Origin: an uncultured Holosporaceae bacterium
GTDB taxonomy: Bacteria; Pseudomonadota; Alphaproteobacteria; RUG11792
DNA length: 34,717 nucleotides
Direction: 5' to 3'
Assembly: GCA_946408175.1 (NCBI GenBank)
Contig: CAMJRB010000004.1
Location: 1-34,717 of the forward strand
The stretch's first letter is position 1. Each line of letters starts with the position of its first letter. Both the position numbers and the translations under genes were made by a program. Positions 3,390 through 34,717 of this stretch are shown here, one piece after another. Under the pieces are notes generated by a model, which searched no databases, had not been told where the DNA came from, and saw nothing but the letters and a program-made list of their open reading frames with translations.

Positions 3390-3444
3390 TTATTATTATA
3401 AATGACATTTTATGTTTAACTTTATTACGAATAGGAGGAGTTTT

Positions 3445-5607
3445 ATGAAATATCTTAATAAAATACTACTATCAATAGCTATAGTAAGCAGTTCCATTAA
3501 TGCAATGGATAAGAATAATCCATTAGGAAATAATACTAATGATTTAGCACAAAATGATACTACTAAGAAATTATCTACTAAGCATTTAATAAATAATTGG
3601 GAACCAACAATAAAAGATGAACAAAAATTGAAAGTTATATTTGGTAAATTCGAGGAAATAACGTCTCAATTAGCAAAAAATTTAAACGGGATTTTTAAGT
3701 CATTTACGCAATACGTAATGAGATGTGACGCTATGCAAGATAAATCAAAAAAACAGTTAAAGAAATTGGAAACTGACATATTAGAAATATCTCAAAAAAT
3801 TGGAGAAGTAAATGCTATAAATACTTTCGCCTCATCAAGTGTATGGTCACATGGTAATCATGGGTATAGCATGTCTCATTATGAAACCCGATTTAATAGC
3901 ACTCTTGCACGGCTTGAATTTAAAGAAATTATTAAAGATATTAAAAAACCAACTTATACTAGTGAAATAAAGGATGTATTTCAGAAGATAAATATAAAGG
4001 ATTATAATGAGTTAGCAATTGATATGCCTACAAGTGCTGTTCAATATGCTTCAATTAGCAATTTATTGAACAATATAAATGATAAAAATAGTACAATATA
4101 TGAAATATTATATGCTTTAAATAATAAAAGTGAGCGTTTATCAGGAAATTTTAAAACATTTAAAGATATGATTAATCAAAACTTAGTCAATATTACGGAA
4201 ATGTCAAGCAAATTACAGATATTAAATAATCAATTAAAATACGCTAATACTAACATTAATAAATTAGCAAAGAGTGCTTTATATACTAATAATCTTAATA
4301 AATATTATGATGCATGTACTTGTGCATTAAAAGCAAATTTAAACTTTAACAACAATAGTATACCATATAAAATGGAGGTTGCAACACTGGATTTTGATTC
4401 AGACTATATTATGCTACAAGAACATAAAAATCAATCTAATAACAAATTGAATTACACAAAATCAGAAAATAATAGTAAATCTAATAATGAATTGGCAATT
4501 CAGGAGGATAAACCATTAAGTGAAGAAGCTGATATTAGTACATTAGAATATAAGCTTAATGTATTAGAAAAGTTGATTAATAAATTAAGAAATGTTAATG
4601 AGACAACAAAAGATGTTCTGATTAATATTAGGAAGAAATTACTAAATTTTATTACTATTAATAAAGCATTACTACAGGAATATCCAGCGTTCCAAAAGGC
4701 AGTAAATGATACAATAAATGATATTGATAGTAATGTACAAATTGTATTAAATAATAACCATAATATTACTAATAGAATAAACATAGTACACAAATATGAA
4801 ACTGGACAGAAATTAAGTGAAATCAGCACATTAGAGACACGTCGACTAAACATGCAGAAAGCATATGGCATTTTAAAAACTAAGAACAAGATAATTGAGG
4901 ATCAACAAGACAAAATTAATTATTTAAGGAGTCAAAACCAGCGTTTGGTAGGGGAGCTCAAAAAAAGTGGTGCAGCACCAGAGAGCATCAGGGAAGTATT
5001 AAACCTCAATAATTCTAATAGAGAAAGAAGTAGAGAAAAAGAAATAGAACAGGGAAAACGAAACAATGAAAAAGGTGCCAAGAACAATCAGAAATCGCAA
5101 AGGGTAATAAACATTTGGAAGCCAATTAGTAATAAAAGCAATAAAGATAAATATAATAGGTACAAAAAAACTAAATCAAATAATCAAGAAAATACAATCA
5201 ATTATTTCCCAAACAATAATGAATACAATAGCAGAACAGGGAATAAAGAAAAAATTAGAAACAACAAAGGAACACCGAAGCAAATAAACTATAGAAATGA
5301 TGTTAGACAAAATGATAAAATCAAACGTGATTATATAAGAAATAAAGATGAATATAGTAGGGACACAAACATTAAATTCAATAGTCAAGGAAATAACATC
5401 AATTACTTCCAAAAAAATACTGGAGAAACTATAAATAATTCTCAGATAGAAAGACCCAAAGCAAAAGAACTAGAAACAGAAAGAAAGTCTAACAAAATAG
5501 CAAATAAACAAGGCGCTAATAACAATATGATAACTCTTAAGCACTTTAATCCTACTGTACTCTACTCTTTTCAGGGAAAAAGCAATATAGAGAACGAAAA
5601 TCAATAG
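3445..5607 (+). CDS. Large exported coiled-coil Asn/Lys-rich protein, unknown
   Basis: I do not recognise a family for this 720-residue protein. The start at 3445 is set by AGGAGG (3433-3438) and a clear signal peptide, MKYLNKILLSIAIVSSSINA followed by MD. The mature part is long, polar and mostly helical, with heptad-like stretches (about residues 375-510). A basic low-complexity C-terminal third begins at NRERSREKE (about residue 525), and an Asn-Tyr-Phe motif is repeated at about 582 (NTINYF) and 650 (NNINYF). The next gene on this strand has the same plan, the same RERSR motif and the same final ENQ, so the two look like diverged paralogues. After the TAG stop the frame stays open for 20 more codons rich in Ser, Asp and Glu. 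It is most likely secreted to the surface or host; function unknown. Confidence 0.85.
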   Translation: MKYLNKILLSIAIVSSSINAMDKNNPLGNNTNDLAQNDTTKKLSTKHLINNWEPTIKDEQKLKVIFGKFEEITSQLAKNLNGIFKSFTQYVMRCDAMQDKSKKQLKKLETDILEISQKIGEVNAINTFASSSVWSHGNHGYSMSHYETRFNSTLARLEFKEIIKDIKKPTYTSEIKDVFQKINIKDYNELAIDMPTSAVQYASISNLLNNINDKNSTIYEILYALNNKSERLSGNFKTFKDMINQNLVNITEMSSKLQILNNQLKYANTNINKLAKSALYTNNLNKYYDACTCALKANLNFNNNSIPYKMEVATLDFDSDYIMLQEHKNQSNNKLNYTKSENNSKSNNELAIQEDKPLSEEADISTLEYKLNVLEKLINKLRNVNETTKDVLINIRKKLLNFITINKALLQEYPAFQKAVNDTINDIDSNVQIVLNNNHNITNRINIVHKYETGQKLSEISTLETRRLNMQKAYGILKTKNKIIEDQQDKINYLRSQNQRLVGELKKSGAAPESIREVLNLNNSNRERSREKEIEQGKRNNEKGAKNNQKSQRVINIWKPISNKSNKDKYNRYKKTKSNNQENTINYFPNNNEYNSRTGNKEKIRNNKGTPKQINYRNDVRQNDKIKRDYIRNKDEYSRDTNIKFNSQGNNINYFQKNTGETINNSQIERPKAKELETERKSNKIANKQGANNNMITLKHFNPTVLYSFQGKSNIENENQ

Positions 5608-6041
5608 AATGTTAGTTCAGATTCAGTGAGTAGTAATGAAAGTTACTCAGAGAACGATAGTCTTGATTAATTTTTAGTCAATAAGATCAGTGCATTGTTG
5701 TTTATAGTACACTTTGCACTTTATTTCTTTTATATCAAATTTTTTTATTATATTCTTACGAATAATAATTATTGAACTATAATACATATTAATTTACAAA
5801 ATAAATTCGAATCTAATATTTATCAATTACTTATAATAGACAAGTATATAACAATACTTTTTGCATTGCATTCAATTATGTAATTATAATAAAATGTTAA
5901 TGACATGTTAACCTAATACAATTTAAAATAGATTTAAGGGGGATTTTTTCATTGTTTTGATATTCTCAAAATATCTCTGAATATTATTATTTTAAATATT
6001 TTAACATGCTTAATTTTTTAATAGAAATAATAGGGGGGTTT
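5608..6041. other. Intergenic gap between the two coiled-coil protein genes
   Basis: No gene is supported here. The first 63 bases continue the upstream frame past its stop (to TAA 5668-5670). AGTGCA (5689-5694) and TGCACT (5715-5720) could form a weak hairpin followed by a T-rich run, a possible terminator. An AAGGGGG at 5936-5942 resembles a ribosome site but is followed by no supported frame. Confidence 0.5.
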
Positions 6042-7895
6042 ATGCAAAATATTGATAAAAGTTTACGCTGTGCCATATCCATTGCATTAATGGCTAGTAG
6101 TAATTTATATGCTAGTGATGAGCCAGATATTTTTGATGAAATAAGTTTCAGTAAAAATAACATAATAAATAATAATGGAAATAATAATACATTAATACCA
6201 AATACAATTGAAACTATAAATAATAATAATGAGCCAAAATTAAATGAAAAAATTAATACAGTTAATAACCAATTTACTACTATACAAAGTACTAATAATA
6301 ATACACAACAAGAACCAATAAGTATCAAAACTACTAACAATAATATTCATCTAATCCAACAAAATGCACAACGAACTGATAAGACATTACAGGACTTATT
6401 GGCTAAGATGAACCAACAAGTACAAGAAGTATCCTTGAATTTTAATGAAAAGAATAGTAGAATACAAGAACTGTTAAAATTAATAAAGGATAATCAAAAT
6501 ATTATAATGACGTCATTAGATAAGACATCTAATGAAATAATAGACATAAGTAAAAAGCTTGGTACTTCAGAAGTAGAGCAAAATCAAATCAATACAGCCC
6601 TTGATAATCTAACAAGTAGGATCAACCATAGCAAGTTTCAGAGTACTTTTAATAATGAAATGATTACTCAAAAATCTAGCACTGAAACATTATCGGATAA
6701 TAAGGCTAATATAGAACAATATATATCAAACAATAGGAATATTAACTTAAATTTTCCAGAACTGAATTATGGACCATCAATTGGTAGATCAATAAGTAAA
6801 TTACAAAATAGTACTATGAAAAATCAATTAATTCAATTAAATACTAATATAAATAATTCACTTTATAAGCCATACTTCAATTTGAAACGTGACACTAAGA
6901 ATGAATTCCAAAATATTAATAAAAAACAAATAGAAATTGACAATACTATACAAAATCTTAATAACTTTCTTTATAAAATAAATGAAACTAGTAATGCTCA
7001 ATTAAAAAACACAGCAGATCATAATGAAACAATAAGATACTTCCAAGAAAAAATTAATATTTTATTGGAATCCAATAACCAAAACACACTAACGAGTATT
7101 CCACAATTTAATATTAATAAGGATACTGTACTACCTATTAATAATGATATTATTTTACAATCTGCTAACAATATTGCAAACAATGATGTAAATAAAATTC
7201 AATTACTTGAAAATAGTGATATTGATAATATTAATAGCTCTGTACCAGTAAAAGATGTATTAAGGAATATTAATATAAAATTTAGTTTATTTGATAGTAA
7301 TAATAACGAATTGGATAACAAATTTAATAAATTAAATCAATTAATAAATGCTAGGAATAATAAAACAATTAATAATCTTAATAGCCTAAAAAACAATATA
7401 AATAAAGTATTTAACAAAATAAATAGTGTCTCTTCCTATAATAAGGAACACGTATTAGAAATTAAGAGACAACAGCAATTTATGTGTTGTTTAGAAAACG
7501 AAAAAGGTATTCGTCAAACTCTTACTAATAAATACCAAACATTAAGCAAGGAAAACATAAAATTAAAGAATGATAATAGCGTTTTACACAACTCAGTACA
7601 TTTATGGAAAAGTAAATATAATAATGTTGTAGAAAACAGGAAGAAAAATAGTGATAGTAACATAGACAATAGGGAAAGAAGCAGAGATAGAGAACTAAGT
7701 AATGCAAAAAAATTAAGGAATAATACTAACATGAATAAAAAAGCAATCACTATAGAAATTCACAATAAAAAACAAACAATTAATGGAGCCATTAGATACG
7801 AAAGCAATAATAAGAATAATAAATCTTTATTGCAACCAAAATTTATCCCAAATCCTAAGAAAGTTATATTGGATAGTGAAGATGAAAATCAATAA
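6042..7895 (+). CDS. Large exported coiled-coil Asn-rich protein, paralogue
   Basis: This 617-residue protein is of no family I recognise. The start at 6042 follows AGGGGGG (6032-6038); the signal peptide reads MQNIDKSLRCAISIALMASSNLYA before SDEPD. The first 100 mature residues are extremely Asn-rich, then come long predicted helices, including a coiled-coil segment near residues 480-530. The motif NRERSRDRE at about 541-549 and the acidic end DSEDENQ echo the preceding gene, which has NRERSREKE and ends NIENENQ. Together with matching length and architecture this supports common descent, although overall sequence similarity is low. An intrinsic terminator follows. The likely place of action is outside the inner membrane; whether it reaches the host is unknown. 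Confidence 0.85.
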   Translation: MQNIDKSLRCAISIALMASSNLYASDEPDIFDEISFSKNNIINNNGNNNTLIPNTIETINNNNEPKLNEKINTVNNQFTTIQSTNNNTQQEPISIKTTNNNIHLIQQNAQRTDKTLQDLLAKMNQQVQEVSLNFNEKNSRIQELLKLIKDNQNIIMTSLDKTSNEIIDISKKLGTSEVEQNQINTALDNLTSRINHSKFQSTFNNEMITQKSSTETLSDNKANIEQYISNNRNINLNFPELNYGPSIGRSISKLQNSTMKNQLIQLNTNINNSLYKPYFNLKRDTKNEFQNINKKQIEIDNTIQNLNNFLYKINETSNAQLKNTADHNETIRYFQEKINILLESNNQNTLTSIPQFNINKDTVLPINNDIILQSANNIANNDVNKIQLLENSDIDNINSSVPVKDVLRNINIKFSLFDSNNNELDNKFNKLNQLINARNNKTINNLNSLKNNINKVFNKINSVSSYNKEHVLEIKRQQQFMCCLENEKGIRQTLTNKYQTLSKENIKLKNDNSVLHNSVHLWKSKYNNVVENRKKNSDSNIDNRERSRDRELSNAKKLRNNTNMNKKAITIEIHNKKQTINGAIRYESNNKNNKSLLQPKFIPNPKKVILDSEDENQ

Positions 7896-10109: not shown

Positions 10110-10289
10110 ATGTCTATTGGTTCTTGCTGCATTTCTGTTTGTCCTTTTAGGAATTCTGGTGATTCGCGAAATAAATTTATCATATTCTTGAACTGTATTC
10201 TAGGAATCTATGTTCTACTACTAATGTTTGTAGTAATGATAATATTAAGCGCCATGTTTTACGCCTTTCATCTTTTAGTGCAAAAATAA
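10110..10289 (+). CDS. Possible small membrane protein
   Basis: A 59-codon frame starting MSIGSCCISVCPFRNSG contains one strongly hydrophobic segment of about 25 residues (about 25-50). It follows accA by 40 bases on the same strand. No ribosome site is visible, the frame is short for such AT-rich DNA, and I recognise no relative, so it may be chance. The even hydrophobic span and cysteine-rich start are the only support. Confidence 0.3.
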   Translation: MSIGSCCISVCPFRNSGDSRNKFIIFLNCILGIYVLLLMFVVMIILSAMFYAFHLLVQK

Positions 10290-10624
10290 TATAGCGTCTT
10301 CATTACTCATATTTTCGAGATATAATAATCGGTTAAATGCTAGTTCTTTAATAATCAAGTAATTCTTTCCTATCTAAATAAAAATAATGAGAAATATTGT
10401 TATAAAGACGATAGATAAGGCAATAATAAAGCAGTATTATTATTGCAATATAACTTTTTGTCTGTTAATTTTAATAAAAATTTATTATATTAACACATTA
10501 CCAGTATATATTATATGGTATTTCTTAAGAACAGTTTTATATTGAGTAAATAATATCAACTATTCACATTTATAAGAAATACTATTCTAATGGTAATTAC
10601 TTAATACAACCATCTGAAATAATA
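10290..10624. other. Gene-free stretch downstream of accA with hairpins
   Basis: No gene is supported. GCAATAATA (10420-10428) and TATTATTGC (10438-10446) form a nine-pair hairpin followed at some distance by CTTTTTG, a possible weak terminator for accA. A longer imperfect inverted repeat spans about 10496-10598: ATTACCA and GTATTTCTTA on the left, TAAGAAATAC and TGGTAAT on the right. Confidence 0.4.
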
Positions 10625-11245
10625 TTAGTGGTGAGCAAATATGTCGTAATTACCATCTATCATTAAGTCAAATAATACTCTAGTGGGCAAATATTCAAAA
10701 CAGGCTTTAGCCATTTCCATTCTATTTTCTCGTTTTAATAATATATCTAATTTATTTTTTAATTGATGTAAATATAAAACATCAGTGGCAGCGTACAATA
10801 ATTGTTCTCTACTTAATTCACTACTGCCCCAATCAGTACAAGTTTCTTTCTTGGATATTTCTATTGATAATAATGCATTGCATAGATCTTTCAAGGAATG
10901 CTTATCTGTATAAGTTCTAACTAATTTTGAAGCTATTTTAGTACAATATATATTATTAGTCATTACTCCTAGATATTTATATAACATCATTATGTCAAAT
11001 CTAGCATAATGAAATATTTTTACTATATTTTTATTCTGTAATATACTTTTAATATTTTCCGATGAAGTATAATTATCAAATTGTACTATGTAACTAACAT
11101 TATTTCCTGTACAGAACTGAGCTAAACATAATCGATCCCTATGAGGACATAAACCCATAGTTTCAGTATCTATAGCTACTTCTCGTACATTGTCTAAAAA
11201 CTCTTTGGGTAAATCATTTTTATATACTAATATTGTAGGATGCAT
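10625..11245 (-). CDS. Short RNase D-type 3'-5' exonuclease
   Basis: The product is a DEDD-superfamily exonuclease, in the alphaproteobacterial short form (206 residues) that lacks the HRDC domains of E. coli RNase D. Exo I reads VAIDTETMGL (about residues 24-33, with the paired acidic residues), Exo II has HYARFDIMML (about 108-117), and Exo III includes the ATDVLYLHQL stretch (Tyr-Asp-type; about 170-179). Such enzymes trim the 3' ends of stable RNAs such as tRNA precursors. The start at 11245 (MHPTILVYKND) is chosen by family length; a GTG three codons upstream is possible. No clear ribosome site is visible. It stands alone between accA and murF. Confidence 0.9.
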   Translation of the reverse strand: MHPTILVYKNDLPKEFLDNVREVAIDTETMGLCPHRDRLCLAQFCTGNNVSYIVQFDNYTSSENIKSILQNKNIVKIFHYARFDIMMLYKYLGVMTNNIYCTKIASKLVRTYTDKHSLKDLCNALLSIEISKKETCTDWGSSELSREQLLYAATDVLYLHQLKNKLDILLKRENRMEMAKACFEYLPTRVLFDLMIDGNYDIFAHH

Positions 11246-17117: not shown

Positions 17118-17597
17118 TTATTTATATTCAATTGATAATATTGTATAACTTTTTATTCCACTAGGGGTATTAACTTCTATCGAATCATCAACTTTTTTGC
17201 CTATTAATGCTCTAGCTAATGGTGATGTTATTGGTAATAGTCCTGATTTAATATCAGCTTCATCACTGCCTACTATTTGAAATTTTGAAATTACATCTGT
17301 ATCATCATCTACTATTTCAACTGAAGCTCCAAACTTTATTACATCTGATTTTATATTACTTACATCTATTATTGTAGCTTGACTCAATTTTTTTTCTAAT
17401 GCTGTGATTCTTGATTCTATTATAGATTGTTTTTCTTTAGCTGAATGATACTCAGCATTTTCGGACAAGTCTCCTAATGCCCTAGCTGAAGCTATAGCAC
17501 TAATTATAGCTGGTCTTTCAACATTTCGTAAATTTTTTAATTCTTCTTGCAGCTTATTGTATCCATTTAATGTCATAGGAATACTTGTATCACTCAT
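17118..17597 (-). CDS. greA: Transcription elongation factor GreA
   Basis: GreA enters the RNA polymerase secondary channel and stimulates cleavage of backtracked transcripts. The 159-residue product has the N-terminal coiled coil with the conserved IASARALGDLSENAEYHSAKEKQ stretch (about residues 35-57), whose acidic D/E residues sit at the catalytic tip, and the C-terminal FKBP-like domain ending ITSPLARALIGKKVDDSIEVNTPSG. The ATG at 17597 (MSDTSIPMTLNGY) has GTGAG at a good distance and is preferred to one four codons upstream. It stands alone between two gene-poor gaps. Length and motifs are normal. Confidence 0.96.
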   Translation of the reverse strand: MSDTSIPMTLNGYNKLQEELKNLRNVERPAIISAIASARALGDLSENAEYHSAKEKQSIIESRITALEKKLSQATIIDVSNIKSDVIKFGASVEIVDDDTDVISKFQIVGSDEADIKSGLLPITSPLARALIGKKVDDSIEVNTPSGIKSYTILSIEYK

Positions 17598-18297
17598 TTT
17601 TATACTCACAAATTTACAAATAACTATATAAACATAATTATCATATATTTTCAGTAAACTGTCAAGTATAGAAATACAAGAAAAATGATAAGAATTAACA
17701 GTGATATATTATATTATTTATTATTTTTCCAAAATTTTATTTTAAATTATATTATATATAAAATTAATCTTATTGTTTGTAATTGTAATATAAAATTAAT
17801 GTTTAATAAAAGGAAACAAAGTCAGTATTATCTATTAGTATTGAACTATATTAAAACTATTACTGTAAATATTATTATATATTGTAGTTCAAAAATTTAT
17901 TTTAAATTGCAGATTTACTACCTATATTAACATATATATTATTGGTAGTAAAAAATATAAAATTATTACAAGAAATTTACGACAAAACAATATATAATAA
18001 ATTGTAATTTTAATATTATTAAATACATTGATTTTGATATTCAATTCTAAATTGCAGTTTCCTAGAAAAATTTAAAAGACCATTGTGCAATATTTCATAC
18101 AAACCATTGAATATTGCAATATTATTATTATTATGATAAATAAAGGTATAAATTAATAAAAAATTAGTTATATCAGTTAGCACGCTTGTACTAAATTGTA
18201 CAATGTTATTAATTTGCATATAAAAAACAGTAAACATTACACGCACTTTAATTAATATGCAATTTATAATAACAGTCTATATTATAAGTACATTATC
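17598..18297. other. About 700 bases without a confident gene
   Basis: Two open frames lie here, 81 codons on plus at 17685 and 75 codons on minus at 18019-18246. Neither has a ribosome site or a recognisable relative, and both are what such AT-rich DNA gives by chance. The minus frame includes YEILHNGLLNFSRKLQFRIEY, which could be a protein remnant, but I cannot assign it. Confidence 0.45.
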
Positions 18298-18501
18298 TTA
18301 ATTATTTAAATTAAGTTTAATATAATCTCCACTAGTTATTTTCAAAGTACTATTATTAGTTATATTTAATGTACATTGTATTACTTTTTCTGCAATTTTG
18401 GAATTAGGTTTTTTACGTATAACATTTGTTATTTCCTTTGAACCATCACAAGTAATTGTTAATAATTCTAATTTAGTTCCAATAATAGTAGAATTATTCA
18501 T
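18298..18501 (-). pseudogene. C-terminal fragment of a small secreted protein gene
   Basis: The 67 codons here repeat the last 67 codons of the secreted protein at 20384-20917, with about 14 base differences over some 195 aligned bases by eye. Shared stretches include NNSTIIGTKLE, LTITCDGSKEITNVIRKKPNS and the ending GDYIKLNLNN. The signal peptide and first half are missing, and similarity stops at the point where this frame happens to have an ATG with no good ribosome site. It is a truncated duplicate, almost certainly not expressed as an exported protein. A broken Rpn-type gene lies just upstream on the same strand. Confidence 0.8.
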
Positions 18502-18594
18502 TCTTTTATAACTAATAGTTACTATTACATATAATATATTATTAGTATTGTTTTGTAATATTAATCAAAACACATCAAATTATTTAATATAAAA

Positions 18595-19495
18595 TTATAT
18601 TATTTTATTTAATGTTTCTTCAGACAACCCAGTATATTTAGACACTATCTCTATTGATAAACCATCTGCTAACATCTTCCTAGCTGTTTCGATTGCTTTT
18701 TCATGTTTACCTTCAGCTAAGCCTTCTTCTCTAGCTATAGCTTTTTCGCTTTCCTTATCCATTTCGTATTTATCTTGAGCTCTTTGTTGGGCTTTTAATT
18801 GTTCATCAGCAGATATTTTATTCCACAAAGTTTGAGCATCTTTCATACCTTCATCATTGCTTTCTATTATTTCTGGATTTTTAAAGAATTCTATCCAATC
18901 TTTTAAACCTTTACTAATATTTTCTTTTAATTTATCATTATTATTAAATTTATATAATTGCACCCAAATAATACGTGATTTATTAGTAAAACGTTCGTAT
19001 CCCTCTCCCCATCTAGTAGGTATTGTACAATTAACTATTTCTTCAATAGGAGATATTCTATTCAACATAATACCATCTTTTATTCTGTTTTTTATTATCC
19101 AAATACTTATTATATGAGGTTCGTTATAACTTTTACCTTTCTTACTATGCTGCACCATTAAGCTAGATGCATAAAAAACAGATCTACTGTAAAAATCACC
19201 AGTATCTACACATTGAATTTCAACATTGATGAAAGTATCATCATTGGCCTTTACTTCCACATCTAACCTGCTAGCTTTATTATTTCTACCTTCTATCTGG
19301 GTTTGAGCCTTACATGTTATACATGTTCGTCTCTATTACCATCCAATATAGCATTTAATAAAGGCACTGAAGGTGGAGCATATCGAACCGCAGGTTAGAT
19401 TAGCACATAAGACTCCTTTTACTATCTTCTCTTCCAAAGATTCTTTTAAAAGCAAAATCTTCCGTTGGTCTTAGTTTTGCAATCTTTTTATTCAA
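18595..19495 (-). pseudogene. Broken Rpn-family PD-(D/E)XK nuclease/transposase gene
   Basis: The long surviving frame (18595-19260) shows the Rpn/PDDEXK-transposase fold: RLDVEVKANDDTFINVEIQ with the acidic and E-x-Q catalytic residues, FYSRSVFYASSLMVQHSKKG, and the typical C-terminus of repeated AREEGLAEGKHEKAIETARKMLADGLS and a YTGLSEETL helix. The N-terminus lies upstream in another frame, from a TTG at 19495: NKKIAKLRPTEDFAFKRIFG then REDSKRSLM and a stop. A middle piece, LLNAILDGNRDEHV, is in a third frame. About 43 extra bases (19362-19405) sit between the first two pieces and include an inverse copy (19390-19400) of 11 bases found at 19261-19271. Intact relatives promote recombination as mobile nucleases; this copy is inactive. 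Confidence 0.85.
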
Positions 19496-19626
19496 AATAC
19501 TTGTAATCTAATTCTCACCCTGTCTTAATTATATATCATTAATAAATTTAATACAACATATACTATTTATTTTATTTAAATTAATAACAAAAACATCCAT
19601 AATTATTACTATGGATTGGAATTGAT

Positions 19627-20088
19627 TTATCGTCTAGGAATAATTTCAAATTTTGTGTTATTAGTATGAATACTCAAAAATAAATTATTATCTTGACTAA
19701 TTTGTTCCACTATTAATGGTTTGTCAAGTAAATAAAATACTAATACTGGTTTGTAATCGGTATCACTACTTAAATTTAATTTACATAATTGGTCACCAAT
19801 ACTATGAATTTTTTTGAATATTATTACATTGTCATATTTTTTACTTTTAATAATTGATTTCGCTGCTAAATAATTATTACTTTGATTAAAATTATTAGCA
19901 AATTCTGTTAAATTATCAAAACAATGTTTCTGACCATTACAAATCAAATCAATACTACCATTATTGTGTAAATTAATATCCATTTGTGCATTACTATTAT
20001 TAGTAATACAAGTAAGCACTACTGCACAAAAACCTAAAAGCTTTGTAGTTTTAAAAATACGTGAAAAATGCATGGACAACATCTCCAT
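19627..20088 (-). CDS. Small secreted cysteine-containing protein, unknown
   Basis: This protein of about 153 residues has a signal peptide (hydrophobic LLGFCAVVLTCIT, probable cleavage after NNSNA). I start it at 20088 because AGGGG (20103-20099 on the minus strand) lies about 10 bases upstream; earlier in-frame Met codons have no such site. The mature part, INLHNNGSIDLICNGQKHCF and onward, can be aligned with the secreted protein at 20384-20917: a cysteine pair near the start, then alternating strand-like stretches and IIFKKI versus IFFNKL. They look like diverged members of one family. No known domain is recognised. A periplasmic or host-exposed location is inferred from the signal peptide. 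Confidence 0.7.
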   Translation of the reverse strand: MEMLSMHFSRIFKTTKLLGFCAVVLTCITNNSNAQMDINLHNNGSIDLICNGQKHCFDNLTEFANNFNQSNNYLAAKSIIKSKKYDNVIIFKKIHSIGDQLCKLNLSSDTDYKPVLVFYLLDKPLIVEQISQDNNLFLSIHTNNTKFEIIPRR

Positions 20089-20196
20089 ACAAATTAAACC
20101 CCTATGAAATATTATTTTACAACCATTAATAAAATGCAATACCTCAAAATGTTAAAGCCCATTCATAAACTTACAAATGAGCCAAAAAAACAACAA

Positions 20197-20256
20197 CTAA
20201 ATTTCTGAATCAGAATCTTCAATTACTTCATTATTGATATCAAAATTATCTGGCAT
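20197..20256 (-). other. Tiny acidic ORF, possible gene remnant
   Basis: Nineteen codons, MPDNFDINNEVIEDSDSEI, follow an AGGGGA about 9 bases upstream; the frame is also open upstream without a start (INRGSID). The acidic end resembles the tail of the coiled-coil protein ending DSEDENQ. It may be the last piece of a decayed gene. Confidence 0.3.
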
Positions 20257-20383
20257 ATCAATGCTTCCCCTATTTATGACAATCTCACTAGTTACATATA
20301 CAATAATTATTCTTATAAACTAATAAAAATTATTTATACATAAACTAATAAATACTTATAAATATAACCGGAACAATACTACA

Positions 20384-20917
20384 TTAATTATTTAAATTAA
20401 GTTTAATATAATCTCCATTAGTTATTTTCAAAGTACTATTATTAGTTATATTTAAGGTACCTTGTATTAATGTTTCAGTAATTTGGGAATTAGGTTTTTT
20501 ACGTATAACATTTGTTATTTCCTTTGAACCATCGCAAGTAATTGTTAGCGATTCTAATTTAGTTCCAATAATAGTTGAGTTGTTTGCTATTATATCATTA
20601 ATATTTAAAATTATATTTACTACATTACCTGTATTATTTTGTAATACTAAATCAAATACTGTATCGTTACTAACTAATTTATTGAAAAATATATTATTGT
20701 TTTTTTTGTCAATATGAACATTCTCTAATGTTATAGAATTATCAGATGTACTACTTAATTGTTCAGGAATTTGTGTAATATTACACACTACATCTTTATT
20801 ATCATAAGACAACTTGCATTGATTATCATCAATAAAACTAATTACAACTGGAGAACTTTGTGCTACATTATAAATTGTACTAATAACTGCTATAATACCA
20901 ATAAAATTTCTAAACAT
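20384..20917 (-). CDS. Small secreted beta-rich protein, unknown
   Basis: The 177-residue protein starts MFRNFIGIIAVISTIYNVAQS, a clear signal peptide, with AGGGGG (20927-20922) four bases before the ATG. The mature part is rich in Asn, Thr, Ile and Val with short alternating strands. It has a cysteine pair (QCKLSYDNKDVVC, about residues 33-45), a third cysteine in LTITCDGSKE (about 128), and ends GTLNITNNSTLKITNGDYIKLNLNN, a repeated strand pattern. I know no named family. Its C-terminal 67 codons are duplicated at 18298-18501, and it aligns weakly with the gene at 19627 and the pseudogene at 21057. The clustering suggests tandem duplication and decay of one secreted family. Confidence 0.8.
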   Translation of the reverse strand: MFRNFIGIIAVISTIYNVAQSSPVVISFIDDNQCKLSYDNKDVVCNITQIPEQLSSTSDNSITLENVHIDKKNNNIFFNKLVSNDTVFDLVLQNNTGNVVNIILNINDIIANNSTIIGTKLESLTITCDGSKEITNVIRKKPNSQITETLIQGTLNITNNSTLKITNGDYIKLNLNN

Positions 20918-21056
20918 TCAACCCCCTATATGAATACAAATACCAAATCTCAATTACAGGATACGTTATGTATGAATGAAAAAACAAGAGATAAAAAAAC
21001 AACACCCATAAATTTAAAACCTGGGGGTTGCAATCCAACTAACAACAATAATTTCG

Positions 21057-21579
21057 TTAGTTAAATATCAAAGAACCACCATGAGGAACTATTCTAGAAC
21101 GTGGATTATCAATAATATTTTGTATTTGCAAATCACCGTAAATTTCCACAACAGCATCTGACGAATTTTCTAGAACATTAATGTTTACGATATTATTGTT
21201 AGACTTTACTATTAATTTAAAAATGTTATCACCAACTGATAGTTTTAATAAATGTCCATTGCCTTCAAAATTAAATACTACTCTTGGTTTACAATTTGGA
21301 CTACCTTTTACTGACAAGGAACATGTTTTAATAGTTTACATTTCATTAAAGTTTATAGTATTAAATTCAATATTATCAATATTGACAGAAGTTATTCTCA
21401 AATAATTACTAGTAATATTATTTATACCGCTTGATAATTCCATACTATTCATAAATGTTTTACCTTGTTTATTACATTCAACAGAACAGCCAAAATTACT
21501 CATAACAGCACTATATATTTTGCCTAAAGTTGCCCAATGCAACCACTACTATACTCAAAAACTTACTTACGTTAGTCAT
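21057..21579 (-). pseudogene. Decayed secreted-protein paralogue
   Basis: A signal peptide, MTNVSKFLSIVVVALGN, starts at 21579 with AGAGGA upstream. A single-base shift around 21543 moves the rest into another frame, which runs GKIYSAVMSNFGCSVECNKQGK to FNEM, meets one in-frame TAA (21338-21336), and continues in the same frame as TIKTCSLSVKGSPNC and on to IVPHGGSLIFN at 21057. The pattern of early cysteine pair, ELSSGINNITSNYLRI and IEFNTI matches EQLSSTSDNSITLENV and IFFNKL in the neighbour at 20384. With one frameshift and one nonsense codon it should not produce the full protein. Confidence 0.75.
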
Positions 21580-21740: not shown

Positions 21741-22406
21741 TTATAAAATACTAACTCCCACTTGTATATTTGGATATATTTTATCTATTACTTTTTCATT
21801 AGCGAAATAAATCTTATCACCAGGAATAGCATTTTTAGCTTCAGGATCTATTTGCCAAGAAGTCATTTCTTTACCATTACTATATATTACTACTTTTAAT
21901 CCATTTATTGGAATTATAGTTGAAGTATTATTTAATATAAATCCAGTAATATATATCTTATTCACATTATCCACTGTTTCTAGTCTATACGATATATTGG
22001 ATAATTGTAATGAAGTAACAGTGGATTGAGTAATATTACTTATTCTATTAATTATTAGATTTTGCAATAAATCTTTACTGAAGTACCCTATAGTGCTTAA
22101 TACTACAATTACAGAAGAAATTATATAAAATTTATTAATCCTTTTCTTTTTTAATGTAAATTTAAACTTAGTATTGCTGCGCAAACCAAATTTATTTGCA
22201 ACATTCTTTATTTGTTTTTTTCTATTAGCTTTTATTGGAGTAGCTGTTAATTGCATTACTTTAGTATTACTCAGCCAAAATTTCTTTTGACACTTATAAC
22301 ATCTTAACCACCATCCGTAGCCTAATTTAGGATTTCCTATTGGTGTTTTTAATATTTCAGGTCTTATGTCATAATGACAATTGCAATATGGACATGTAAC
22401 CCGCAT
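21741..22406 (-). CDS. Zinc-ribbon (MJ0042-type) membrane protein
   Basis: The 221-residue protein opens with a zinc ribbon: CPYC at residues 5-8 and CYKC at about 36-39, with GWWLRCYKCQKKFWLS typical of the MJ0042 zinc-finger family. After a basic linker it has one membrane segment (FYIISSVIVVLSTIGYF, about residues 95-111). The C-terminal domain has short strands, ILNNTSTIIPINGLKVVIYSNGKEMTSWQIDP, as in the DUF3426-like proteins that accompany this finger in proteobacteria. Function is not known. The ATG at 22406 starts directly at the finger, as in relatives; a TTG four codons upstream is less likely. It follows rsmD by 76 bases and is probably in the der-rsmD transcript. Confidence 0.8.
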   Translation of the reverse strand: MRVTCPYCNCHYDIRPEILKTPIGNPKLGYGWWLRCYKCQKKFWLSNTKVMQLTATPIKANRKKQIKNVANKFGLRSNTKFKFTLKKKRINKFYIISSVIVVLSTIGYFSKDLLQNLIINRISNITQSTVTSLQLSNISYRLETVDNVNKIYITGFILNNTSTIIPINGLKVVIYSNGKEMTSWQIDPEAKNAIPGDKIYFANEKVIDKIYPNIQVGVSIL

Positions 22407-22482
22407 TGAAAATACCAATTTATAAAATATAGTTTACATTGAAATAATAACAAGAATAATGGTTTATAACCAGTCTATAATA

Positions 22483-33173: not shown

Positions 33174-34717
33174 ATGAACTTTAATTTAAAAAAATATTTA
33201 GTATTAAGTATAGCAGGATTAGCCGTATGTGGAATGCAATCTAATGCAGCACAATGGTCTAGTTATTATAACAATACGAACAAAATGGATTCAAATTACA
33301 ATTCATCATCGCAGAATTATTTTCCATCAATTATTCAAATAAAAAATCGCCAAGACGAAATAGTTAATACGGATGCATTGAGCAGTTTGAAGGTTCAAAA
33401 GTTTGTCTATCATTTAGTAGGCCGATTGGAAAATCGCGATGAACAAGCACAAGCTAGTGCTCTTATTCATGCTTTGAAATTCAAAGATATTAGACTTTGG
33501 AATGATTTGTACAATTGCGTTAATGCATTTATATTAGAAAGGGATATTGGTAGTGAGTTACTAACGTTATTAAATGATAGTGTTTTATATAACAAACAAG
33601 TATTAGATAACATTGATAATATATTAGGATTAGTAAAGTTCGTCGGAGAAATCCAGCAGTATAATTTGAAATTAAATAATGCTAATTCTGGACAGCAAGG
33701 GACCAAGTTTGTATTTTTTACATTGGATAGTGATGATTTATTTTCTCAATTGTGGAATACACTTATTAAGGTTGATAATTGTGCGAAATTGTACGACAAT
33801 CTGATGAGTTTCCTTGAACAAAACTTAGCAAACAATGTTAGTGATTGTTGCTTAGCAGAATTGCTCGCACGCATATACAATTTTACAACAGATGCAGATT
33901 CAAACAATTGTAGTGAGTTTATACAAAAATTTTCTTATTTATTCAATAAAAAATCTGTTTTTGCGACAACTAAGAATCAAAAAGTTGGTTTAGTATCATC
34001 TTTGAATAAACAGATTGTATCTCCTGGTATTTTGGAGCTTTTTAAGAATGGTTTGGGTACGAGCCAAGCATTGTCCTTAGTTAAAAAAATCGGGTGTCCT
34101 ATTGCACTTAGTAATGATGAAGTTCTAGTATTATCTGCGATATTGCAAAATAAGGATGTTACAAAAATAGGTACTCTGGGTGAACAAAGATATAAAATTA
34201 ATAATTTTTATGACTTAATACTGTGGGTTATTGCTCAATTGAAGGAGACTAGTAATGGCGATGGAAATAATGATTCTAATTCAATAAATAATCAGCCCAC
34301 AAACCCTGTAGTAGATAATTCTGATACTCTAATTAATCCATTGGAAAACAACACTCAAACCAATACTAATACTGGATTATTAAGAAATCAAAATCCACAG
34401 TCAAAGCCATTAAACAATGATAATGATCAATTACATCTACATACTGAAGATACTGAATCGCCTGTCGTCAGACAACAATTTACATTTAAGCCAATAAATA
34501 ATAATACAAACGAAACTCCTGTGAAGCCAAATAATGTGGAGAATAATAAACCTATAGTGGATCCTATAATAAAACCTACATACAAACCAGCTATTGATGA
34601 CCCGACAGATAATAATAACAATGAATATCTAAAGATACCTGGATTAGAAGGTAAGTTTGGTGCTGGAGTAAAGATAAAGAGTATTAAATCATATAGGGAT
34701 TTACCTGCTGGTGTAAT
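33174..34717 (+). CDS. Large exported protein, unknown (runs off window)
   Basis: The frame is open for 514 codons to the window end, so it has no stop here. It starts at 33174 with TAGGAG about 7 bases upstream and a signal peptide, MNFNLKKYLVLSIAGLAVCGMQSNA before AQW; the Cys at residue 19 is not in a proper lipobox. Residues about 50-355 are mixed helical with scattered cysteines, for example DCCLAELLARIYNFT. Residues about 358-483 are a low-complexity Asn/Pro/Thr linker. A new segment then begins, EYLKIPGLEGKFGAGVKIKS, possibly the start of a further domain. Codon choice uses visibly more TTG, AAG, CGC and GTC than the coiled-coil genes at the left end, which use TTA and AAA almost throughout. 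I recognise no family; surface exposure or secretion is inferred only. Confidence 0.85.
   Translation, partial: MNFNLKKYLVLSIAGLAVCGMQSNAAQWSSYYNNTNKMDSNYNSSSQNYFPSIIQIKNRQDEIVNTDALSSLKVQKFVYHLVGRLENRDEQAQASALIHALKFKDIRLWNDLYNCVNAFILERDIGSELLTLLNDSVLYNKQVLDNIDNILGLVKFVGEIQQYNLKLNNANSGQQGTKFVFFTLDSDDLFSQLWNTLIKVDNCAKLYDNLMSFLEQNLANNVSDCCLAELLARIYNFTTDADSNNCSEFIQKFSYLFNKKSVFATTKNQKVGLVSSLNKQIVSPGILELFKNGLGTSQALSLVKKIGCPIALSNDEVLVLSAILQNKDVTKIGTLGEQRYKINNFYDLILWVIAQLKETSNGDGNNDSNSINNQPTNPVVDNSDTLINPLENNTQTNTNTGLLRNQNPQSKPLNNDNDQLHLHTEDTESPVVRQQFTFKPINNNTNETPVKPNNVENNKPIVDPIIKPTYKPAIDDPTDNNNNEYLKIPGLEGKFGAGVKIKSIKSYRDLPAGV

Follow-up and report, generated by a model that had tools for sequence, protein, structure and literature searches.

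A putative lineage-restricted family of small exported proteins with cysteines, including intact, truncated and decayed copies, in the genome of an uncultured Holosporaceae bacterium

The contig analysed here (34,717 nucleotides, contig C4 of the assembly, hereafter named the window) carries, between greA (17118-17609) and the gene of a zinc-ribbon protein (21741-22418), a series of elements on the minus strand, several of which encode small proteins with signal peptides. The question raised by this locus is whether these elements belong to one family that duplicates and decays in place, and what would drive such turnover. The source is a 1.11 Mb draft genome of 59 contigs with 26% GC, from an alphaproteobacterial family in which genome sizes are roughly 0.5-1.1 Mb. 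The nearest named genome in a search with GatA was RUG14087 (72% identity), a metagenome-assembled genome of the RUG series, which we take to be rumen-derived; on account of this relationship a rumen or gut habitat is likely for the bacterium.

Family elements in the window

From greA to the zinc-ribbon gene the order is a partial copy, the relic of a PDDEXK_2 nuclease gene, two open genes (designated 19627 and 20384 after their first coordinate) and a pseudogene. The intact member 20384 (20384-20917) encodes 177 amino acids, with the Sec signal peptide MFRNFIGIIAVISTIYNVAQS and an AGGGGG ribosome-binding site just 5' of the ATG. Its mature chain contains two early cysteines (13 and 24) and a late one (107), and the C-terminal tail is predicted to be beta-rich. 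The second open frame, 19627 (19627-20088), encodes ~153 amino acids from the ATG at 20088, which is most likely the start and is preceded by AGGGG; it has a Sec signal peptide (...KLLGFCAVVLTCITNNSNA) and mature-chain cysteines at 19, 25 and 71. The pseudogene (21057-21579) has its signal-peptide start at 21579. It carries a single frameshift, which falls in the interval from the signal peptide to about 21540, and a TAA stop in frame at 21336-21338, and is otherwise readable to 21057; since there are two lesions, they are not the product of one sequencing error. The partial copy (18298-18569) contains the C-terminal half of 20384 with its stop codon and no signal peptide. It is 87.2% identical to 20384-20656 across 273 bp, and bears a 1-bp deletion and upstream stops. 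The first-pass annotation, which described three same-strand genes with signal peptides, a fourth copy reduced to a C-terminal fragment, and duplication and decay in place, was thus confirmed in these points, with a partial duplicate and a two-lesion pseudogene lying within 3.3 kb. An imperfect AT-rich palindrome of ~190 bp (17838-18026; 71% identity between the sequence and its reverse complement) is located between greA and the partial copy.

Over 67 codons, 20384 and its partial copy gave a pS of 0.20 and a pN of 0.059 (pN/pS 0.29). Eight amino-acid changes were observed, against 14.0 +/- 1.6 under neutrality for 18 random substitutions (P 0.00045), and no stop codon arose among the 18 substitutions, which was also the case in 23% of the neutral draws. 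By these counts, 20384 and its copy diverged for a time under purifying selection and, because the divergence shows constraint, 20384 probably makes a functional protein. Of the 35 differences, 23 fall within roughly 80 nt of the 5' end of the aligned region. The 3' part of the pair may therefore have been homogenised, or may be more strongly constrained. The only selection signal measurable in the family is purifying, not diversifying.

Homology and distribution of the family

Direct alignment of 20384 and 19627 was no better than shuffles (p 0.097) and was rejected as proof of homology; that of 20384 with the pseudogene was also nonsignificant (p 0.15). However, an intact paralog was found on contig C1 (L009:8893-9414) when the genome was searched with 20384 (E 4.1e-6). 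Used as a query, this paralog recovered the pseudogene (E 7.4e-6), 20384 (E 1.6e-5) and 19627 (E 0.012), with shuffle p values of 1.5e-6, 2.1e-5 and 9.3e-5, respectively; the pseudogene and 19627 also match each other (shuffle p 5.1e-5). Hence, the earlier impression that the members can be aligned by eye holds through the C1 paralog and not for the two intact window proteins taken directly, whose family link rests on that paralog because their own alignment is nonsignificant. The profile search that had been proposed was carried out as leave-one-out HMMs of five members; all five were recovered (E 4.8e-8, 5e-6, 1.7e-6, 2.5e-10 and 8.6e-6), each with a match that beats all 500 shuffles of that same member. 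The C1-mediated tests and the HMMs therefore exceed composition-matched controls, whereas the direct alignment of 20384 and 19627 does not.

Two further loci were added by the same genome. Contig C56 carries a decayed copy of 19627 (E 5e-8; 77% nucleotide identity over 126 bp), a remnant that is one of the two weakest members by similarity (E 0.0004-0.003). Contig C26 encodes a 344-amino-acid exported protein with an insert of NAFNKKPI-like repeats (p 2e-4 versus 20384; leave-one-out E 8.6e-6 versus 7.5e-5 for the best shuffle), which is likely to be a distant member and is less secure than any other. The product of the gene just downstream of the C1 paralog (L009:9545-9985), also exported, was rejected as a member (p 0.07-0.34 versus members). 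The family spans four genomic loci: the window cluster, C1, C56 and C26. Judged by similarity beyond composition-matched controls, the window elements and the C1, C56 and C26 sequences appear as one homologous family. That they are unrelated exported proteins, alike through a common Asn/Ile-rich composition, would agree with the shuffle-level alignment between 20384 and 19627, but this reading is highly improbable, being refuted by the C1-mediated shuffle tests and the leave-one-out HMMs for all but L009:9545-9985.

Profile searches of the 34 further genomes in the bacterial family, which include one of the same genus, gave no credible member (best E 0.087, in a sequence with three stops); those of 385 sampled genomes of the class gave only noise-level matches, and those of 398 sampled genomes of the phylum no member at E 0.001. 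The class matches, in two genomes at E 0.003-0.004, were rejected as expected by chance across 385 genomes. The viral, phage and plasmid collections and the GTDB contig collection (scanned with 20384) yielded no relative, and sequence searches of Pfam, NCBIfam and PDB gave no credible one, in agreement with the earlier remark that no described family is known to have the pattern. DUF1120 (PF06551) was the sole Pfam profile that touched 20384 (E 0.17), and membership was rejected because its 12.5 bits are below the gathering cut-off of 21. The same-genus genome has a fragment 5' of greA (L165:3-206), which with an E value of 6.9 was also discarded as a relative. Since no credible member appeared in the family, class and phylum genomes or in the collections, the simplest reading is that, among the genomes searched, the family is restricted to one species. 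The bacterial-family drafts are 59-100% complete, and the same-genus contig terminates just upstream of greA, so that an ortholog could be absent from that assembly only.

Other exported proteins of this genome also occur in paralogous sets. A second birth-and-death family comprises a gene at 152-1243 of the window, a 37% identical copy on C1 (L009:3950-4948) and a frameshifted copy on C7. A third, of large exported proteins (L012:9526-10914, L184:6113-7000, L185:7567-8856 and L182:3607-4617), shows the near-fixed signal region MSKNFLNFLTTSVIILSCGT ahead of diverged bodies. This region in L182 is 78-89% identical over 36 amino acids to two of the others, which suggests possible reuse of the signal peptide or gene conversion at the 5' end. 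Large exported Asn-rich proteins without a Pfam match above cut-off are encoded at 3412-5607, 6006-7895 and 33174-34715 of the window; the first two have a similar layout, with NRERSR motifs near the C terminus, and no significant similarity was reported when they were compared with each other.

Shared protein features and structure models

By inspection of the sequences, every member has an N-terminal signal peptide, and neither a lipobox nor a C-terminal anchor. The early cysteine pair noted previously does exist in each member, within the first ~25 mature residues, but not in fixed columns: it occupies two of three alternative positions, namely 1 and 2 in the C1 paralog and the pseudogene, 2 and 3 in 19627, and 1 and 3 in 20384. 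No cysteine column is invariant in the member alignment, unlike in small cysteine-rich secreted proteins with a fixed disulfide; the odd number of cysteines (three), together with the shifting columns, argues against one conserved disulfide. The genome encodes DsbB (E 5.9e-19), so disulfides are possible. After the cysteines comes a short stretch (NLTEFANNFN in 19627, NIEVFAREFN in the C1 paralog) that is helical in the 19627 model, and alternating strands are predicted next. The C1 paralog, the pseudogene and 20384 share a further tail of ~45 residues, before which 19627 ends. The missing part of 19627 was sought downstream, and the best of six tests (p 0.038) was rejected.

The structure models were built from the window sequences alone, without the C1 paralog in the alignment. 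The model of 20384 consists almost entirely of strands at a low mean pLDDT of 46. That of 19627 has a low mean pLDDT of 56, with the first 50 mature residues in blocks of 64-82, and comprises strands at 4-10, 16-20 and 23-27, a helix at 30-40 and a strand at 44-51. Fold searches with these low-confidence models gave best Foldseek E values of 0.29 and 0.34, and a best VIA Z of 5.0 to unrelated proteins, none of which is a credible match. The translocator beta barrel that marks autotransporter adhesins is absent from these proteins of ~150-177 amino acids, which have no match to a Pfam barrel, and no membrane anchor or recognised catalytic domain was found in them.

Turnover, genomic surroundings and possible role

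The reading that we favour, and consider somewhat probable, is that the proteins are Sec-exported, disulfide-capable and beta-rich, and form a lineage-restricted family undergoing birth and death. The Sec pathway would carry each protein from the cytoplasm, with removal of the signal peptide, and the chain would fold, in the periplasm or outside the cell, as a small domain rich in beta strands (tentatively beta-beta-beta-alpha-beta-beta-beta). This domain would have a cysteine-bearing hairpin, oxidisable by the Dsb system of the cell, and a C-terminal beta tail of varying length. Outside the inner membrane the protein would bind a partner; a binding role is the most likely one because lipobox, membrane anchor, barrel and recognised catalytic domain are all lacking. 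The small size, the fast divergence with kept frames and the lack of a catalytic family fit a binding or inhibitory protein that faces a changing partner. Copies would arise through duplication and rearrangement, diverge and get lost. A molecule of a host or of a rival is most likely the reason for the fast divergence, and the partner is tentatively a host molecule, though at less than even confidence; the weight left beyond a host partner and toxin immunity falls to envelope roles or decay. Turnover driven by host-interaction pressure, as proposed in the first-pass annotation, is plausible, and in a small, rearranged, AT-rich genome, beside nuclease genes, drift and recombination can also produce it.

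Non-adaptive turnover, in which an ancestral exported family is dying in a small drifting genome without pressure from a host, and rearrangement yields duplicates and decayed copies as by-products, is possible but somewhat unlikely. The pseudogene, the fragment, the C56 remnant and the broken PDDEXK_2 gene all lie in gene-poor stretches, the second paralogous family (152-1243, with the frameshifted copy at L185:9228-10210) is also decaying, and at 12 of the 18 differences the fragment has A/T where 20384 has G/C. These observations agree with decay, but the purifying signal between 20384 and its copy, and the persistence of the full-length frames of 20384 and the C1 paralog at 26% GC, do not.

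A second alternative, quite unlikely, is that these are immunity proteins, periplasmic or orphan, which are kept as a changing array against the contact-dependent toxins of rivals (e.g. type VI effectors). Small, signal-peptide-bearing, lipobox-free, cysteine-containing products in decaying local arrays fit what periplasmic immunity genes encode, and the genome has the type VI sheath genes TssB and TssC (E 4.3e-48 and 5.2e-124). However, no recognisable effector gene adjoins any copy, the array is distant from the tss genes and there is no match to the Pfam immunity families. The neighbours of the family genes are greA, the zinc-ribbon gene, PDDEXK_2 genes, mltG, dnaQ, miaA and genes of unannotated exported proteins. 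TssB and TssC are encoded on C2 (L012:2133-4195) between plsY and the gene of a DegP-like exported protease, and no further tss genes were recognised within the 16 kb read.

The PDDEXK_2 (Rpn-like) nuclease relic of the window (18595-19468, minus strand) matches PF12784 with an E value of 1.7e-14 (54.6 bits versus a cut-off of 27.4). It has an open body of 221 codons and an N-terminal part in other frames (scan C4:18742-19293 and 19406-19468). Rpn proteins of the PDDEXK_2 superfamily have been studied for a role in horizontal transfer (PMC5350276), and rpn genes have been reported as toxin-antitoxin genes directed against phages, with C-terminal domains that vary (PMC10327210). The PDDEXK_2 proteins of this genome had no match in PADLOC. 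PDDEXK_2 sequence is present on both sides of the C1 paralog (L009:8277-8350 and 10159-10984) and at the end of C56. In the same-genus genome, the neighbours of the zinc-ribbon gene are gatC and then thrS, and mltG is followed by alaS; both main clusters (C4 and C1) occupy these junctions, which are gene-order breaks relative to that genome.

The family genes might thus be passengers carried by moving or recombining PDDEXK_2 units, an explanation that we regard as improbable. In its favour, three of the four family loci lie within ~2.3 kb of PDDEXK_2 sequence, of which the genome has only 8-9 loci, and 25 bp separate the relic's end from the point where the partial copy breaks off. On a rough estimate, ~4% of the genome is situated no more than 2.5 kb from a PDDEXK_2 locus, so that such an association is unlikely by chance, but the count includes the C56 relic, which was found because that locus was inspected. 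Yet no element boundaries were seen in common between the loci, several PDDEXK_2 loci have no adjoining family member, and both kinds of gene may merely accumulate in permissive intervals. The association would be explained if recombination occurs at these spots, or if both kinds of gene are tolerated in such intervals. Two PDDEXK_2 genes (L009:10159-10845 on C1 and L185:5117-5806 on C7) share 96% of their first 188 residues and differ at their C-terminal ends, each with a frame break in its N-terminal part. Contigs C25, C49 and C56 terminate inside PDDEXK_2 genes; because contigs end within them, these genes are probably near-identical repeats, and likely sites of recombination.

Returning to the exported, beta-rich family under birth and death, its fullest version would have young species- or genus-restricted binders that arose and diverged in a single rumen-type alphaproteobacterial lineage, are shuffled at Rpn-like spots, and attach to or inhibit a (possibly protozoan) host molecule; taken as a whole, this version is unlikely. 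Within 3.3 kb the locus displays every stage in the birth and death of a well-supported, undescribed exported family, from a little-studied alphaproteobacterial lineage of small genomes. If a host or a rival is bound, the loci would be a compact system for tracking duplication, truncation and loss among strains.

Among known systems, Rpn loci resemble this one in that PDDEXK_2 genes or relics flank three of the four family loci and in that two PDDEXK_2 genes vary at the C-terminal end, as reported for the Rpn C-terminal domain (PMC10327210), but the exported family is no part of Rpn. Type VI immunity proteins, whether periplasmic or orphan, are likewise small and exported, with a possible disulfide and growing or decaying arrays, in a genome that has TssB and TssC; unlike them, the family has no effector neighbour, no sequence match and no proximity to tss genes. 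The closest in general features are the lineage-restricted exported orphans of host-associated bacteria, with a signal peptide, narrowly distributed homologs, adjacent paralogs and pseudogenes, and a small AT-rich genome, although none of the described families matches the present one. For known effector families, a route of secretion or a target in the host has usually been demonstrated. The duplication and decay of exported orphans is a phenomenon known in kind, of which this family is a new instance.
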